Shown here: positions 14,987 through 57,487 of the stretch, one piece after another | How the letters are laid out: every line of letters begins with the position of its first letter | Position numbering within the stretch: position 1 is the first letter of the stretch | Source of the DNA: Streptacidiphilus melanogenes | GTDB taxonomy: Bacteria; Actinomycetota; Actinomycetes; Streptomycetales; Streptomycetaceae | Length of the DNA: 64,000 bases | NCBI RefSeq assembly: GCF_000787835.1 | Contig: NZ_BBPP01000008.1 | Coordinates: 14,319 to 78,318 of the forward strand | Direction of reading: 5' to 3' | Program-made: the position numbers and the translations under genes | Notes under the pieces: generated by a model | Told to the model about the DNA's origin: nothing | The model's database searches: none | What the model saw: the letters and a program-made list of their open reading frames with translations, nothing else

Positions 14987-17356
14987 TCAGCCCGGGGCGC
15001 TGCCGTCCCGTGCCGCGGCGGCGAGGATCGGCTGGAGGCGGCGGGCCACGTCGACGTGGTCGCCGGTCCAGATGACGCGCACGGCCGTCGCGGTGGCCTG
15101 GCCGTCCGGGTCGACGAGGTCGGTGCGGACGGACTCCACGAGGCGGGCCGCCGCCTCCGGACGCAGCAGGACCGGGGCCGGGACGGGCGTGTGGTCGGCG
15201 AGGCTGCCGGCCAGGCCGCGGTACCAGTCGGTGACGCGGGTGGTCAGGCCGAGGATCGCGCGGTGAGCCTCGGTCTGGTCGGCGTTGGTGCGCGTGAGGG
15301 CGCACTGCTGCCAGAGGGAGACCACGGCGTCGGCCGCCAGGCGGAGGCCGACGACGCCGGTGACCAGGGTGGTCGTGTCGGCCAGCGACAGCGGTTTCGC
15401 TCCGCGTTCCGCCAGGTAGCTGCGGAACGCGTCGTCCAGGCGGCGCGCGGAGGCGGCCGCCTCGCGGCTCTGCCGCACCGGCTCGTCCGGAGGGGCCGCG
15501 AGGTCGGGGGCGCCCGGGGCGCCGCAGTGGCCGAGGGCGAAGTCGACGGCGCCCGACAGGTAGCCGGCGCTGTCGTTGTACGCCTGCGCGAGGGCCCGGT
15601 CGACGGCGGCCCCGGCGCCGCGCGGCCAGAAGAACAGGGCGACGAGGATGCTGACCGCGCAGCCCAGCGCGATGTCCTCGACCCGGAGCAGCGCGATGTG
15701 CCAGTCCGGGTTGTGGCCGATGTTGAACAGCACGACCAGGGTGACGGTGAACGCCGCCTGCCCGGCGGCGAAGGAGATCGCGGCGGGCGCGATCCCGGCG
15801 AGCAGGATGGCGAGCGGCAGCACGAACCACAGCACGGTGCCGTGGTGGCCGATCAGCACCAGCAGCCCGGCGCCGACGAACGAGCCGACCACCGTGCCGA
15901 GGACGGCCCGCACCGCGTTCTCCCCGGTGTTGAGGGCGTTGGAGCGCAGCACGGACAGCGTCCCGAGCAGCACCCAGAACGAGTGCTGGAGGCTGGTCAG
16001 GTCCGCCAGGAACACCGCGATGCCCAGCCCGACCGCGCCGCGCAGACTGTTGTGCAGCCACACCGAGCCCCGGCCCAGATGCGCGGCCGCTCGCTCGCGT
16101 GCCGAGGCCAGCGGTGCGGTCAGCGCCCCGGGCTCGCGGCCGAGCAACCGCGCGGGCCAGCTGCGCTGCCAGGCGGTGGCGGCCAGGTCGACGTTCTCGG
16201 CGACCTGCTGGACGGCGAAGCCCAGTTCCTGCGCGCGGAAGGAGAAGTCGAGGGTCGCGATGAAGCCGTAGACCTCCTCCGAGCTCTCCCCGGGAGGGCC
16301 TGCCACGGGCAGCCGGGCCGTGGAGCTGTCAGCCATCGCGGCCATGGTCACCCGCAGGTCCTGCACGGCGTCGCGCAGCGGGCCGACATCGCCGCGCAGG
16401 TCGGTGAGCAGGTCGGCGGCGCGGTCCAGGACGTCCGCGGCGGCGAGGCGCACGGTCCGGGCGGCCGGATCGCAGGCCGGCGGCTCCTCGGTCCAGGCGG
16501 GCCGGTCCGCGAGGATCGCGCTGAGCCAGGTCAGCTCGTCGACGAGGCGGACCAGCGTGCGCGAGGTGATGGACAGGCCGGTCGGCCGGTAGGGGGTCGC
16601 GTCGAAGGCCCGACGCAGCTCCGCGCTCGCCGTGGACGTCCGCTCCGCCACGGCACGGCACTGGGCGGCGTCCGGACGTAGTCCGGCCTCGCCGTGGCGC
16701 GCGGCGTCGGTGCGCAGCCGCGCGGCCGCCGCGCGGCAGACGCGTGCCGCCGGGGCGCCGAGCGGATCGGCGACCGGGCGCGGCCACAGCAGGGCGATCG
16801 CGGGCAGCGCCGCCGCTGCCGCCAGCCCCGTGCCGGCGAGCCGGTCGGGAAGCTGGGACAGCGGCACCGGCGTCGCGACCGGCAGCACGAACCCGAGCAG
16901 CAGCGCCGTCGTGCTCCCTGCGAGTACCGAGCTGACCACACCGGAGAAGAGCACCACGAAGGCGACCACCAGGGTGACCAGCACGGCGAGCCAGGTCCGG
17001 TGCGCCGCCAGCGTGCCCAGGCAGAGCAGCGCGGCCCAGGCGACCGCGAGCTCGGCCTGGGCGCGCAGCCGTTCCACCATCGGGCCGGAGTAGTCGACGA
17101 GCAGCAGCATCGAGAAGGACCCGAACGCGGCGAAGCTCGCCGTCGCCGGGGCGTGCAGCACCTGGGTGCACAGCGCGAAGAGGGCCGGCATCACGATGGC
17201 GGTGCGCCCCGCCCGACGCGTCGCCGCGAGCCCGGGGTCGTGTGTGCGCAGCCAGCTCAGCAGCCGCGACCCGGGCCGGGGCCGCGCCCGGACCGGGGGA
17301 CCGGCGTCGGACCGCGACCGGGGCTGGGGCCGGCGGAGCGGATCGCGCAGGGACAT
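14987..17356 (-). CDS. FUSC-family inner-membrane protein
   Basis: A 789-residue membrane protein. Two membrane blocks are visible. One is near residues 60-190, with hydrophobic stretches such as AALLCLGTLAAHR and LVVAFVVLFSGVVSSVL. The second is near residues 410-560, with SFWVLLGTLSVLRSNA and TVVGSFVGAGLLVLIGH. Cytoplasmic helical regions separate them. SLQHSFWVLLGTLSVLRSNA followed by AVLGTVVG is the FUSC signature of the aromatic-acid efflux/YccS-like family. Export of aromatic or other small acids is therefore possible. ATG 17356 is preceded by GGGAGGTG and chosen over a long upstream frame. Confidence 0.9.
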   Translation of the reverse strand: MSLRDPLRRPQPRSRSDAGPPVRARPRPGSRLLSWLRTHDPGLAATRRAGRTAIVMPALFALCTQVLHAPATASFAAFGSFSMLLLVDYSGPMVERLRAQAELAVAWAALLCLGTLAAHRTWLAVLVTLVVAFVVLFSGVVSSVLAGSTTALLLGFVLPVATPVPLSQLPDRLAGTGLAAAAALPAIALLWPRPVADPLGAPAARVCRAAAARLRTDAARHGEAGLRPDAAQCRAVAERTSTASAELRRAFDATPYRPTGLSITSRTLVRLVDELTWLSAILADRPAWTEEPPACDPAARTVRLAAADVLDRAADLLTDLRGDVGPLRDAVQDLRVTMAAMADSSTARLPVAGPPGESSEEVYGFIATLDFSFRAQELGFAVQQVAENVDLAATAWQRSWPARLLGREPGALTAPLASARERAAAHLGRGSVWLHNSLRGAVGLGIAVFLADLTSLQHSFWVLLGTLSVLRSNALNTGENAVRAVLGTVVGSFVGAGLLVLIGHHGTVLWFVLPLAILLAGIAPAAISFAAGQAAFTVTLVVLFNIGHNPDWHIALLRVEDIALGCAVSILVALFFWPRGAGAAVDRALAQAYNDSAGYLSGAVDFALGHCGAPGAPDLAAPPDEPVRQSREAAASARRLDDAFRSYLAERGAKPLSLADTTTLVTGVVGLRLAADAVVSLWQQCALTRTNADQTEAHRAILGLTTRVTDWYRGLAGSLADHTPVPAPVLLRPEAAARLVESVRTDLVDPDGQATATAVRVIWTGDHVDVARRLQPILAAAARDGSAPG

Positions 17357-17578
17357 GCGCACCTCCCGTGGACACGGCAGCGGCGGGCCCTGGCGCCGCA
17401 CTTCGTTCACCACCATTGGCCTGCACCGCGGACGGACCCGCCACACCAGCTTATTTCGAGGTTGTTCCGACCTCAGTCCAAGGGCCCGCAGGCCCCGGAA
17501 CCGGAAAACGGGTTGGGCGGGTCGCGCTTCGCTGATAGCGTGCGAGGCACCGTGACAGGACGCGAGGAGGTGAGACCC

Positions 17579-17632
17579 GTGAAGAAGGTTTTCCAGTGGG
17601 TGCTCCCTCATACCCTCACGGCGGGCGAGTGA
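17579..17632 (+). CDS. Possible 17-residue leader peptide (uORF)
   Basis: GTG at 17579 starts VKKVFQWVLPHTLTAGE and ends with TGA at 17632. GAGGAGGTG lies 7 nt upstream and is among the strongest Shine-Dalgarno sequences in the window. A stem-loop follows 12 bp downstream and abuts the ribosome-binding site of the acetyltransferase gene. This layout suggests a translated leader controlling the downstream gene. The peptide is not recognised. Confidence 0.5.
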   Translation: MKKVFQWVLPHTLTAGE

Positions 17633-17644
17633 CGTAGGTGTCCT

Positions 17645-17674
17645 CAGGAGTGCCTCCGACAGCACGGCACTCTG
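17645..17674 (+). promoter_or_regulatory. Stem-loop next to the acetyltransferase ribosome-binding site
   Basis: CAG-g-AGTGCC (17645-17654) pairs with GGCACTCTG (17666-17674), a 9-bp stem with one bulged base and an 11-nt loop. The right arm ends one base before the AAAGGGG ribosome-binding site. It could form an attenuator with the preceding leader ORF. Confidence 0.5.
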
Positions 17675-17689
17675 CAAAGGGGATACGCC

Positions 17690-18499
17690 ATGAACTCTTC
17701 ACCTTTTTCTTCCGCTTTCCCTTCCGGCACGGGCAGTCGTCCCGTGACGGTTACGCGGGCCGCGCCGACGCAGTGGCTCGCCCTCGCCGACGGCCAGAAG
17801 CTCGGGAGGGGCGACGCCTCGCGCAGGCCCGACGGGCGGATGTTCGTCAGCATCGACACCTGGCACGAGGACGTCTTCGACCGTCTTGCCGCCGCCATGC
17901 CGGCGGAGCTGCCGGGGCCGCTGCACGCGGTGGTCCACGAAGGCGACTCCGACACCAGGGCCGCCTGGGAGCGGGCCGGCTTCACGGTCGCCCGCCGCGA
18001 GCGGGAGTACGTCCTGCCCACCGACCCGCGGGTGACCGGCCTCGACGCCGTGCGGCCGCCGTCCGGTGTGACGGTCGTGCCGCTCGGCCGGGCCGAGGAG
18101 GGCCCGCTGCGCCTCCTGGACCGGGCCGTCCGCGCCGAGGTCGAGGCCACCGTCGGCTGGCGGACCATGCCGGCCGAGGTGTTGCCGCGACCCGACGGGG
18201 TCACCGTCGTGGACCCGTCGACGTACGCGGTGGCGGAGCTGTCCGGCCGCTACGTCGGACTGGTCCGGGTGGTGTCCCGGGGGCGCGAGGCGCGGATCGG
18301 GCTCGTCGCCGTCCTGGCCGAGCAGCGGCGCCACGGCATCGCCCGGGCCCTGCTGGCCGACGTCCTGCGCGCGCTGCACCACTCCGGCGTAGCGGCGGCG
18401 CGGGCCGAGGTGGACGAGTCCAACAGCGGTGCGGTGCGCCTCTTCGAGGGCCTCGGCGGCCAAGGCCGGGACACCATCCTCGAGTTGGTGCGCCCCTGA
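17690..18499 (+). CDS. GNAT-family N-acetyltransferase
   Basis: A 269-residue protein whose C-terminal half is a GNAT domain. [20 protein letters not shown] contains the acetyl-CoA pyrophosphate loop (Q-R-R-H-G-I-A). Downstream, [18 protein letters not shown] is the typical N-x-x-A-x-x-L-[FY] helix. The N-terminal half, with [17 protein letters not shown] and [11 protein letters not shown], looks like a degenerate second GNAT lobe. The acetyl acceptor is unknown. ATG 17690 has AAAGGGG 7 nt upstream. A possible leader peptide and hairpin precede it, so induced expression (for example by a translation inhibitor) is a reasonable guess. Confidence 0.88.
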
Positions 18500-18569
18500 G
18501 CGTCACCGACGCGCCACCTGGACCGAACGATCACATGCACACCATCACCGACTCGACGAAAGAGTGAAC

Positions 18570-18794
18570 TTGCCGAAGACATCGAACGGCATCGAAATCG
18601 AGGGCATCGTCACCGAATGCCTGCGCAACGCCACCTTCACGGTGGAGCTGCAGAACGGGCACAAGGTGCTCGCCCATATCAGCGGGAAGATCCGGAAGAA
18701 CTACATCAAGATCCTTCCGCAGGACCGGGTGCTCGTGGAGCTCAGCCCGTACGACCTCACCCGCGGCCGGATCCTGTACCGGTACCGGACGTGA
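18570..18794 (+). CDS. infA: Translation initiation factor IF-1 (paralog)
   Basis: A 74-residue S1/OB-fold protein. [40 protein letters not shown] and [17 protein letters not shown] match IF-1 nearly end to end. IF-1 binds the 30S A site and stimulates IF-2/IF-3 during initiation. The housekeeping infA normally lies in the ribosomal-protein operon beside rpmJ. Here there are no ribosomal genes, so this is a second copy. TTG 18570 has AAAGAG at 5-nt spacing. GTG 18564 is an alternative that adds two residues. It follows the acetyltransferase gene by 70 bp and could be read from the same promoter. Confidence 0.92.
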
Positions 18795-18850
18795 GCACTC
18801 TCACCCGCTTCCGTGCAGGTCGGGCGAAACGGGGCGATTAGGCTGGCTTG

Positions 18851-18994
18851 ATGCGCTTGACAACCATCCTCCGCCGACGTTCGAAGCTCCCCGTTCCGCC
18901 CGATCTGGCCCGCCTCCAGGCTCGGGCCGCCCACCTGCGCGGGGAGATCTTCTACCTCCGTCCGGCCTACACCCAGCAGCTGCGCTGGGTGTAG
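18851..18994 (+). CDS. Small coiled-coil-like ORF ended by a palindromic stop
   Basis: A 47-residue ORF: basic MRLTTILRRRSK, then an amphipathic helix DLARLQARAAHLRGEIFYL, ending LRWV before TAG. The same frame continues without another stop for 26 more codons to 19075, and that continuation (GLERRMQEMEAAALSAL) also looks helical. The TAG lies inside the right arm of a perfect 18-bp inverted repeat. The ancestral gene may therefore have been about 74 codons long and interrupted by the palindrome. There is no good ribosome-binding site. It follows infA by 56 bp. Confidence 0.4.
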   Translation: MRLTTILRRRSKLPVPPDLARLQARAAHLRGEIFYLRPAYTQQLRWV

Positions 18995-19001
18995 GCCGGA
19001 C
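18960..19001 (+). terminator. Perfect 18-bp-arm hairpin
   Basis: GTCCGGCCTACACCCAGC (18960-18977), loop AGCTGC, GCTGGGTGTAGGCCGGAC (18984-19001) form a fully paired stem. It is long enough to act as an intrinsic terminator without a U-run, as is usual in high-G+C actinomycetes. It overlaps the end of the small ORF and supplies its stop codon. Confidence 0.65.
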
Positions 19002-19089
19002 TGGAGCGTCGCATGCAGGAGATGGAGGCTGCCGCCCTCTCGGCCCTGCCGATGCAGGCCGGCCCGGTCGACTGACACGCCGCGGAGCC

Positions 19090-19114
19090 AACATCCGGAC
19101 GACGTCCGGATGTT
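19090..19114. terminator. Hairpin between the infA region and the PBP gene
   Basis: AACATCCGGAC-GAC-GTCCGGATGTT has perfect 11-bp arms and a 3-nt loop. It would stop transcripts from infA and the small ORF before the penicillin-binding protein promoter. Confidence 0.7.
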
Positions 19115-19248
19115 CGTTCCCATCCTGGGCCCACCGCTGCGGTGCGGCATGTAACAGAACGTCTACAGGCCAGGGGCAGGACCGGAACATTCCCGGAGGT
19201 CACATACGATCTCCTTGCCGCCGTTCCGTCCAGCTCCTCGGGGAGATC

Positions 19249-20937
19249 ATGCAGCGCGACCTCGACACGCCCACCTGGTCGGGGAACCAGCCCGTCGGGC
19301 CGGAGCCCACGCCGCCGGGCCGGAACCGGAAGTGGCTGATCGCCGCGGTGGCCGGGGTCGCCCTCGTCGGGGCGGGCAGCGCGGCCGTCTACGCCTACGC
19401 GGGCTCCTCGAAGTCGACGTCCGGCCCCGACGCGCAGAAGCACGTGCCGGTGATCACCACGCCGACCGTCGCGCAGGCCACGGCCGCGACCCAGCACTTC
19501 CTCACCTCCTGGGCCGCCGCGGACCTGAACGGGGCCGCACAGACCACCGACCAGCCCTCGTCCGCGCAGTCCGCGCTCGGGACCTTCGCCTCCGGCCTGC
19601 ACGCGTCCAAGATCGCCTTCACCGGCGTGGCCGCAGGCCCCGCGGACCCGGCCGTGGCCCACGCGCTGCGCACCACCTTCCACACCACCGCGACGCTCAC
19701 CGGCGGCGGCAGCTTCGCGTATGCGGGCTCCGCGGACGTGCTGGTCGTCGATGGCAAGCCGGAGGTGCACTGGGCGCCGTCCGTGCTGTACCCCGGACTG
19801 AAGCCCGGCCAGACGCTGGCCTTCGGCAGCATCCCGGCCACCACCGCCAAGGTCGTCGACCGCCACGGCGCCGCGCTGACCGGCCAGACCTTCCCCTCCC
19901 TGGCCGGCGTCATCAGCGAGCTGCAGACCCGCGACGCGGGCAAGGCCACGCGCACCAAGGGCCAGGGCGTGGAGATCGCCGACGCGAGCGGCAAGACCGT
20001 CAAGGTCCTGCACGTCGTCCAGCCCGCCGTGGCGGGCACGATCCGGACCACCCTCGACGCCGGTCTGGAGGTTGCGGCCCAGAAGGCGGTCAAGGACTCC
20101 CACATCGGCACCATGCCCTCGGACGTGGTGGCGATCGACTACACCACCGGCGAGATCCGCGCGATGGCCTTCCGCGGCGGCGACGCGGCCTTCAACGGCG
20201 CGGCAGCGCCCGGCTCCACCATGAAGATGATCACCTCGGCCACGCTCTTCGACAAGGCCGGGATGCGTCCCTCCGACAAGTCCGCGTGCGTGAAGCAGAC
20301 CGTGATCAACGGTCAGACCTTCCACAACTTCCAGAACGAGAGCGACCCCAACGCGGACCTCACCAAGGACTTCGCGATCTCCTGCAACACCGGGTTCATC
20401 GACGCGGCGACCAAGAACCTGCACTCCGGTGACCTGCGCGAGGAGGCCCGCGACGTCTTCGGCATCGGCGACTGGAACATCGGCGTGCCCACCACCGACG
20501 GCAACGTGCCCGACGAGAAGGGCAGCACGAACCAGATCGCGGCCCAGTCCATCGGGCAGGGCCAGGTCACGATGAACACCCTCGCCATGGCCTCCGTCGC
20601 CGCGACCATCGCGGACGGCGCGTTCCACCAGCCGATCATCGTCCCGGGCCTGCCCCAGCAGGCGGCCGCCCGCCCGATCTCCGTCGCCACCGCGACCGCG
20701 CTGCGCCAGATGATGACCGTCACGGCCAACGCGCCCTACGGCACCGCCGAGCCCCGCATGACCGGCATCCCCGGCGGCGCCAAGACCGGCACCGCCGAGA
20801 CGGCGAAGGGCACCAACGGCTGGTTCGCGGCCTACGACACCACCAACCACCTCGCCGTCGACGCCCTCGTCATCGGCGGCAAGGAAGGCGTCCTCTCGGC
20901 CGGCTACGTCGCCCGCGACGTCCTGACGGCCGGCTGA
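19249..20937 (+). CDS. Penicillin-binding protein (transpeptidase) with MecA_N-like domain
   Basis: A 562-residue membrane-anchored D,D-transpeptidase that would cross-link peptidoglycan. A short cytoplasmic tail precedes one membrane segment (WLIAAVAGVALVGAGSAAVYA, about residues 29-49). An NTF2/MecA_N-like region (about 70-190) follows, then the penicillin-binding domain. The active-site triad is complete: PGSTMKM (S-x-x-K), SCNTGF (S-x-N) and GAKTGTAE (K-T-G). The lack of a glycosyltransferase domain makes it class B. Upstream, GGAAC at 19183 with GATC 19 bp later is a weak resemblance to an ECF envelope-stress promoter. An inverted repeat (20959-20966 with 21000-21007) after the stop may end transcription. 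Confidence 0.92.
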   Translation: MQRDLDTPTWSGNQPVGPEPTPPGRNRKWLIAAVAGVALVGAGSAAVYAYAGSSKSTSGPDAQKHVPVITTPTVAQATAATQHFLTSWAAADLNGAAQTTDQPSSAQSALGTFASGLHASKIAFTGVAAGPADPAVAHALRTTFHTTATLTGGGSFAYAGSADVLVVDGKPEVHWAPSVLYPGLKPGQTLAFGSIPATTAKVVDRHGAALTGQTFPSLAGVISELQTRDAGKATRTKGQGVEIADASGKTVKVLHVVQPAVAGTIRTTLDAGLEVAAQKAVKDSHIGTMPSDVVAIDYTTGEIRAMAFRGGDAAFNGAAAPGSTMKMITSATLFDKAGMRPSDKSACVKQTVINGQTFHNFQNESDPNADLTKDFAISCNTGFIDAATKNLHSGDLREEARDVFGIGDWNIGVPTTDGNVPDEKGSTNQIAAQSIGQGQVTMNTLAMASVAATIADGAFHQPIIVPGLPQQAAARPISVATATALRQMMTVTANAPYGTAEPRMTGIPGGAKTGTAETAKGTNGWFAAYDTTNHLAVDALVIGGKEGVLSAGYVARDVLTAG

Positions 20938-21054
20938 CCACCGAACCCGCGTGCGCGGGCCGGGGCTGAAGCCGCCGTACGCACGGCAGACGGCCCTGGG
21001 CCCCGGCACCGCTCGCGCGTGATCCGGTGCGGCCTTTCTGGCAGCATGGCGACC

Positions 21055-41356: not shown

Positions 41357-41408
41357 CCGTCGGCCCGGCCCGGCCCCGCCCACAGGCGGCGTCGGGCCGG
41401 GCCGACGG
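41357..41408 (+). terminator. Strong terminator of the conservon operon
   Basis: CCGTCGGCCCGGCCCG (41357-41372) pairs perfectly with CGGGCCGGGCCGACGG (41393-41408): 16-bp arms and a 20-nt loop, 19 bp after the monooxygenase stop. A second, smaller hairpin, GCACAGCG-GGCT-CGCTGTGC, lies at 41432-41451. The rest of the 296-bp gap to the next gene shows nothing recognisable. Confidence 0.9.
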
Positions 41409-56392: not shown

Positions 56393-57487
56393 ATGAGCCT
56401 GCTGTTCGAGCCCCTCGCCCTGCGTGACGTCACCGCCCCCAACCGGGTGTGGATGGCGCCGATGTGCCAGTACTCGGCACCGGCCGAGGGGCACGCGGCG
56501 AACAACGACAGCGTCGGCACGCCGGGGGAGTGGCACTTCCAGCACCTGGCCTCCCGCGCGGCGGGAGGCACGGGTCTGATCCTGACCGAGGCGACGGCGG
56601 TCACGCCGGAGGGCCGCATCAGCCCCTGGGACCTGGGCATCTGGAACGACCACCAGGCCGCTGCCTTCCGGCGGATCACCTCCTTCCTGCGCGAGCTGGG
56701 CACGGTCCCTGGCATCCAGCTCGCGCACGCGGGCCGCAAGGCCTCCTCGGCGCGCCCGTGGGACACACCGGGCGGCTCGCTCCCGGCGGACCACCCGCTC
56801 GCATGGCAGAGCGTCGCGCCGAGCGGCGCGGCGTTCGGCGCGATGACCGCGCCTGCCGAGCTGAGCGTCGATCAGATCGGCGAAGTCGTGCGCCGCTTCG
56901 CCGAGGCGGCGGAGCGGGCGCTGGCGGCGGGCTTCCAGGTCGTCGAGATCCACGGCGCGCACGGTTACCTGGTGCACGAGTTCCTGTCCCCGTACTCGAA
57001 CCACCGCATGGACGCCTACGGCGGCCCGCTGCAGAACCGCATGCGCTTCGCACTGGAGGTGACGGAGGCGGTCCGCGCCGTCTGGCCGGACGAGCTGCCT
57101 GTCTTCTTCCGCGTCTCGGCCACGGACTGGCTGGACGAGGGCGGCTGGACCGCCGACGAGTCCGTGTTGCTGGCCAAGGAGCTGCAGGCCCGCGGGGTGG
57201 ACCTGGTCGACGTCTCCACGGGCGGCAACGTCCCGGACGCCCGGATCCCGGTCGAGCCCGGCTACCAGGTCCCCTTCGCCGCCCGCATCCGCAACGAGGC
57301 GGGCCTCGCCACCGGGGCGGTCGGCCTGATCACCGACCCCCGCCAGGCCGAGCAGATCCTCGCCTCCGGCGAGGCCGACGCCGTCCTCCTGGGCCGCGAA
57401 CTCCTCCGCAACCCCTACTGGGCCCGCCACGCCGCCACCGCCCTCGGCCACGACCTGCCGAAGCTCGACCAGTACGCCCGCGCCTGA
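56393..57487 (+). CDS. Old yellow enzyme family NADH:flavin oxidoreductase (YqjM type)
   Basis: A 364-residue FMN-dependent ene-reductase. VWMAPMCQYSA holds the regulatory Cys of YqjM-like enzymes. IQLAHAGRKAS, VVEIHGAHGYLVHEFLSPYS (the substrate-binding His pair) and NHRMDAYGGPLQNR are class-typical. AVLLGRELLRNPYWARHAA contains the conserved C-terminal Arg-x-x-x-x-Asn-Pro. It reduces C=C bonds of alpha,beta-unsaturated carbonyls. Cotranscription with the alcohol dehydrogenase is likely (50-bp gap), and together they would reduce enals to saturated alcohols. A hairpin terminator follows about 150 bp downstream. Confidence 0.94.
   Translation: MSLLFEPLALRDVTAPNRVWMAPMCQYSAPAEGHAANNDSVGTPGEWHFQHLASRAAGGTGLILTEATAVTPEGRISPWDLGIWNDHQAAAFRRITSFLRELGTVPGIQLAHAGRKASSARPWDTPGGSLPADHPLAWQSVAPSGAAFGAMTAPAELSVDQIGEVVRRFAEAAERALAAGFQVVEIHGAHGYLVHEFLSPYSNHRMDAYGGPLQNRMRFALEVTEAVRAVWPDELPVFFRVSATDWLDEGGWTADESVLLAKELQARGVDLVDVSTGGNVPDARIPVEPGYQVPFAARIRNEAGLATGAVGLITDPRQAEQILASGEADAVLLGRELLRNPYWARHAATALGHDLPKLDQYARA

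Follow-up and report, generated by a model that had tools for sequence, protein, structure and literature searches.

A small protein gene of Streptacidiphilus melanogenes seems to have been truncated by a template-switch mutation that completed a palindrome within its reading frame. We put the probability of this reading, which comes from comparing the sequence with that of related genomes, at roughly 0.84. The gene lies in a stretch of 64,000 nucleotides (hereafter the window) taken from a draft genome of 8.77 Mb in 107 contigs. The first-pass annotation had already proposed that a template switch turned a quasi-palindrome into a perfect one and truncated a gene of about 74 codons, and this proposal is supported both by the comparison with homologs and by two mismatches whose repair looks templated. 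The features involved are as follows.

18564..18794, + strand: IF-1 type gene (translation initiation factor; PF01176, E 4.8e-27), the upstream neighbour of the ORF
18851..18994, + strand: truncated small ORF of 47 codons, from the ATG at 18851 to the TAG at 18992-18994; it corresponds to the N-terminal portion of a conserved protein (65-74 aa) that has close homologs in five other genomes of the genus
18960..18977, + strand: left arm of the palindrome, presumably the template; S. neutrinimicus and S. anmyonensis have the same sequence here
18978..18983, + strand: loop of 6 nt, holding one more own-lineage change (18979) that fold-back leaves unexplained
18984..19001, + strand: right arm, presumably the rewritten copy; fully complementary to the left arm
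18990..18993, + strand: smallest rewritten tract; A>T at 18990 gives E47V, T>A at 18993 turns L48 into TAG, and each change mends a mismatch that the hairpin has in relatives
18995..19075, + strand: remnant of the original frame past the premature stop, 26 open codons up to the TGA at 19073-19075 (from ORF reading and homolog comparison)
19084..19120, + strand: separate hairpin downstream of the original TGA, with arms 89% complementary; it has more mismatches in S. neutrinimicus, and S. anmyonensis and S. pinicola show other foldings
19249..20937, + strand: penicillin-binding transpeptidase gene with a MecA_N domain (PF00905, PF05223), the downstream neighbour of the ORF

The palindrome itself is as the first-pass annotation described it: the two arms are complementary at 18/18 positions across the 6-nt loop, and the in-frame TAG falls within the right arm. 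Folded as RNA, the stem comprises 22 pairs with one bulged base and reaches -47.6 kcal/mol, compared with a mean of -21.6 (sd 3.2) for shuffled sequences (z -8.1), none of the 200 shuffles being as good. It is the only perfect 18-bp stem with a loop of 3-20 nt in the 64-kb window, and such stems were absent from 40/40 first-order Markov windows; its presence in the window is more than chance would give. The region's DNA matches its own genome at its own place only, its own reverse complement there included, and we therefore rejected a repeat or mobile element as a candidate. As a separate observation, 260 kb of the same contig contain three sites with perfect stems of this kind of at least 18 bp, and the other two (contig G000:C100, 97024-97070 and 242997-243036) lie outside the window. 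GC skew is small throughout the window, ranging from -0.057 to 0.012.

Relatives of the ORF were sought at both the DNA and the protein level. The DNA search matched the region in six of 14 Streptacidiphilus genomes and the protein profile search found matches in seven of the same 14, while among 394 genomes drawn evenly across the family the profile search found eight, the window's own genome being included in each count. Judging from these searches, the small gene appears to occur almost only in this genus. Close homologs are present in S. neutrinimicus, S. anmyonensis, S. pinicola, S. jiangxiensis and S. fuscans (the S. fuscans genome has a listed contamination of 10), and in all five of them the ORF runs uninterrupted for 65-74 codons. 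This is the outcome that the first-pass annotation had suggested looking for, and neither of the results it had named as speaking against its proposal was obtained: homologs do exist, and they do not all end at the same TAG. The TAG counted in the profile match of S. pinicola is that ORF's own end and not an internal stop. A sixth, more distant homolog within the genus (genome G005) is likewise free of an internal stop. So is a distant homolog in another genome (G046), but that match covers model positions 1-41 and stops short of the place in question. This last match comes from a short ORF at about 1501-1731 of locus L025, in another genus of the family, which begins like the protein (E 6.4e-4 over positions 1-41); the resemblance hints that the small protein might belong to a wider, fast-evolving family.

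The surroundings of the ORF are largely shared as well. The order GNAT gene, IF-1 gene, ORF, penicillin-binding transpeptidase gene is common to the window, S. neutrinimicus, S. anmyonensis and S. pinicola. The GNAT and IF-1 genes of S. jiangxiensis are placed after the ORF instead, and in S. fuscans no neighbour genes of the ORF were found within the sequence stretch examined. The IF-1 type gene at 18564-18794, which sits between the GNAT gene and the ORF, is possibly a second IF-1 copy of the genome.

Comparison with the homologs reveals both the earlier state of the palindrome and the direction in which it changed. The nearest relatives by identity across the contig are S. neutrinimicus (0.892), S. 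anmyonensis (0.887) and S. pinicola (0.853). Residues E47-L48 are invariant in all five close homologs, encoded by GAG TTG in these three species and by GAG CTC in S. jiangxiensis and S. fuscans, whereas the window has GTG TAG. As the first-pass annotation had anticipated, the right arm is imperfect in the three nearest relatives: the same stem is present there with exactly two mismatched pairs (-37.8 kcal/mol in S. neutrinimicus, -37.8 in S. anmyonensis and -39.9 in S. pinicola), and the window is complementary at both. In other words, an imperfect inverted repeat occupied the site ancestrally. The left arm does not differ from that of S. neutrinimicus and S. anmyonensis, and the right arm differs from theirs solely at the two mismatches, which lie three bases apart; with both changes it has become the exact reverse complement of the left arm. 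Neither change occurs in any of the five close homologs, the window's species being represented by one genome among those searched. The own-lineage change at loop position 18979 is of a different nature. This position varies among the relatives as well (T, C, C, A), and the change does not fit the reverse complement of their loops; we therefore rejected an inversion of the loop in the same event and treat it as an ordinary substitution.

Based on these observations, we propose the following course of events. The ancestor would have carried an intact gene of about 74 codons, the middle of which (coding for YLRPAYTQHLRWELAGLE) formed a quasi-palindrome with an 18-bp stem and two mismatched pairs. 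The polymerase making the + strand would have copied the left arm, after which the nascent strand might have folded back; at least positions 18990-18993 of the right arm would then have been written from the left arm, until synthesis resumed on the true template. Such a switch would in one step have converted GAG TTG into GTG TAG, perfecting the palindrome and cutting the protein short after codon 47. We infer that it was a single event and that it went by the fold-back route on this strand; a nascent + strand would fit an arm rewritten on the right with its left counterpart intact.

What was interrupted looks like a genuine protein-coding gene, since over codons 1-47 dN is lower than dS in 10/10 pairs of the five intact relatives, with ratios of about 0.12 to 0.42 (for the pair S. 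neutrinimicus and S. anmyonensis, dN is 0.030 and dS 0.25). No known family in Pfam or NCBIfam could be assigned to the protein: the intact form has no Pfam match above the cut-off, with CT398_CC (16.8 and 16.3 bits, cut-off 27) and DUF2730 (14.9, cut-off 24.9) all sub-threshold, and it has no NCBIfam match. The searched part of the antisense frame 19148-18801 also gave no Pfam match. The AlphaFold2 model of the S. neutrinimicus protein, built with four relatives, consists of two helices (residues 17-35 and 42-69) in a predicted helical hairpin, with a mean pLDDT of 79.9 and block means of 92-96 across residues 21-60. According to this model, a protein ending before the stop at codon 48 would retain the first helix but lose most of the second, of which six residues would remain.

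The frame past the stop has remained recognisable. The first-pass annotation had noted that it continues, and codons 49-74 are indeed open as far as the TGA at 19073-19075. For codons 49-60, dN is 0, and the 12 comparable codons show no amino acid differences from S. neutrinimicus and S. anmyonensis; in this small sample the unchanged codons fit a recent event. With S. neutrinimicus as sister, the other non-synonymous changes on the window's branch are E18D and M19L. Both residues are invariant in the five close relatives, and two changes are too few to show relaxed constraint. A frame that is open in 5/5 close homologs and interrupted in the window is what one would expect of a nonsense pseudogene. 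In the light of these comparisons we regard a recent pseudogene or an impaired allele as the likeliest status of the gene, its function presumably lost.

Instead of a template switch, two independent point substitutions might have hit the mismatched positions, the perfect palindrome being either coincidental or the result of selection for pairing in the hairpin. We consider this unlikely. Substitutions were counted along the lineages in the 40,308 contig columns in which at least two of S. neutrinimicus, S. anmyonensis, S. pinicola and S. jiangxiensis are aligned. S. jiangxiensis, with 6,113 aligned positions, was used only as an outgroup, and the lineage counts, stem scans and repair probabilities were made without S. 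fuscans. In favour of independent changes, 1386 substitutions in these columns are specific to the window's lineage, and genome-wide about 0.5 repairs of at least two mismatches in 18-bp stems would be expected from independent substitutions when all mismatch types are pooled. The case for a template switch therefore rests on the rare class of the changes and on the small region from which the stem was picked. Both changes are A<->T, the rarest class (18 of the 1386, the two hairpin changes included), and they lie 3 bp apart in one arm. With rates calculated without these two changes, the probability that both mismatches were repaired independently is 1.2e-5 for either arm and 3.0e-6 for the right arm only. 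Both positions are the same in all five close relatives. As for selection on pairing, it is hard to square with the breaking of a conserved frame, and the structure is much weaker, and different, in S. jiangxiensis (-20.7 kcal/mol) and S. fuscans (-24.9 kcal/mol).

The aligned columns were also scanned for repaired stems. Stems with at least two repaired mismatches, with arms no shorter than 10 and loops no longer than 60, number three on the window's own lineage, with arms of 18, 11 and 11, and two stems of 10 bp went the opposite way, being perfect in relatives and broken in the window lineage. When the same substitutions were placed at random 20 times, each placement produced 0-3 such stems, the longest arm being 14. 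Thus, it is the arm length that is exceptional and not the number of repaired stems; the 18-bp arm, against at most 14 at random, and the probability of 1.2e-5 for the stem speak for more change than independent substitution would give, set against the roughly 0.5 repairs per genome over all mismatch types. Under stricter settings (arms of at least 12, loops up to 20, at least two repaired mismatches) a single stem was found on the own branch (40,308 columns) and another, of 13 bp, on the branch of S. pinicola (25,664 columns), while the branches of S. neutrinimicus and S. anmyonensis (19,551 and 36,765 columns) had none. Neither the stricter scan nor the comparison of three stems with 0-3 at random points to a general excess of template switching on the window's lineage.

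An error of sequencing or assembly, whether through fold-back during library preparation or amplification or through base-calling disturbed by the hairpin, seems to us quite improbable. Polymerases are able to fold back in vitro, and both the draft state of the genome, with its 107 contigs, and the strength and GC-richness of the hairpin would be compatible with such an origin. However, an artefact would need to dominate the reads. In addition, the window contains no N, the nearest run of N being 19 kb away in the 260 kb of contig examined, and a general fold-back artefact might be expected to give other own-lineage stems of at least 12 bp with loops up to 20 and two repaired mismatches, of which the 40,308 columns contain no further example.

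If the palindrome arose by a template switch, the question is whether it also acquired a role. The first-pass annotation had suggested that the mutation built a strong terminator, and this part of its proposal found no support. The hairpin component of an intrinsic terminator is there in the form of the stable, GC-rich stem (-47.6 kcal/mol, z -8.1), but the T-run is not: the letters directly 3' of the right arm are TGGAGCG, and no stem followed by a T-run occurs anywhere across 17000-21000, the downstream hairpin at 19084-19120 likewise being without one. No Rfam family was found in 17500-20500. Since the stem has no T-run and a separate hairpin stands just past the original stop, nothing indicates that the mutation gave the gene a terminator where it had none before. 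We see only a slim chance that a single switch both ended the protein and made a stable RNA hairpin that has been kept as a terminator, an attenuator or an mRNA-stabilising end. In that case, replication slips that break genes would provide bacteria with new, ready-made regulatory RNA structures.

The other possibility raised in the first-pass annotation was that the short ORF evolved to end in its own terminator. Taken more broadly, as a functional short form that ends in a terminator or regulatory hairpin, with a role for the 47-aa product or the hairpin RNA, it is the least probable of all: a very stable hairpin does coincide with the stop and the first predicted helix is whole within the 47 codons, but five close relatives use the longer frame, the stem lacks a T-run while another hairpin follows the original stop, and codons 49-60 still match the two nearest relatives in amino acids, as they would after a recent loss.

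Truncation by a template switch would place the gene in a known mutational class, of which it is a clean new case; we make no claim that nonsense mutations of templated origin have gone unreported in wild bacteria. In the portions of the literature drawn on here, template switching at quasi-palindromes has been described at hotspots and with reporters in the laboratory, in genes of yeast and in RNA genes (PMC7202029, PMC8604942, PMC8794818). The part of the Escherichia coli work considered here describes quasipalindrome-associated mutation, in which the polymerase templates on the nascent strand and the repeat becomes perfect or more perfect, at the thyA hotspot and in lacZ QP reporters, the events being raised by replication-blocking drugs (PMC7202029). 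The case in the window resembles these systems in that an imperfect inverted repeat would have been perfected with the nascent strand as template. Unlike the laboratory reporters in that account, it would be a natural event in a high-GC actinomycete, recognised from genome comparison alone (PMC7202029).

In genes of Saccharomyces cerevisiae, template-switch multinucleotide mutations have been surveyed and homogenisation of arms in coding DNA has been observed, as far as the sections used here describe it (PMC8604942). As in that survey, clustered substitutions in the window homogenise the arms of an inverted repeat in coding DNA and can be placed on a branch of the tree (PMC8604942). The window case differs in being bacterial and in its outcome: according to the same sections, the yeast survey dropped orthologous sets with a premature stop codon, and a nonsense outcome thus fell outside it (PMC8604942). 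Our case suggests that nonsense mutations need not be random but can arise by templating; the design of the yeast survey, as given there, would have removed such an outcome (PMC8604942). For RNA genes, the passages considered implicate template switching in the origin and upkeep of hairpins, including stem repair (PMC8794818). One event can turn several stem mismatches into perfect pairing there, as it seems to have done in the window (PMC8794818). The pairing is useful in the RNA genes of that account, whereas in the window it arises in a protein gene and breaks its frame (PMC8794818).

The value of the present case is that a natural bacterial gene shows the states before and after the change, its direction and its coding consequence. 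How often genes are lost by this route could be gauged from the premature stops that lie within newly completed palindromes of closely related actinomycete genomes.

Two other stems deserve mention in their own right. The 13-bp stem on the S. pinicola branch, at the aligned position 56784-56813 of the window, became perfect through the repair of two mismatches among five changes. A perfect 16-bp stem at 41357-41408 of the window differs from its counterpart in relatives by G-T to G-C and A-T to G-C, with changes on both sides, and is possibly the product of another templated change.
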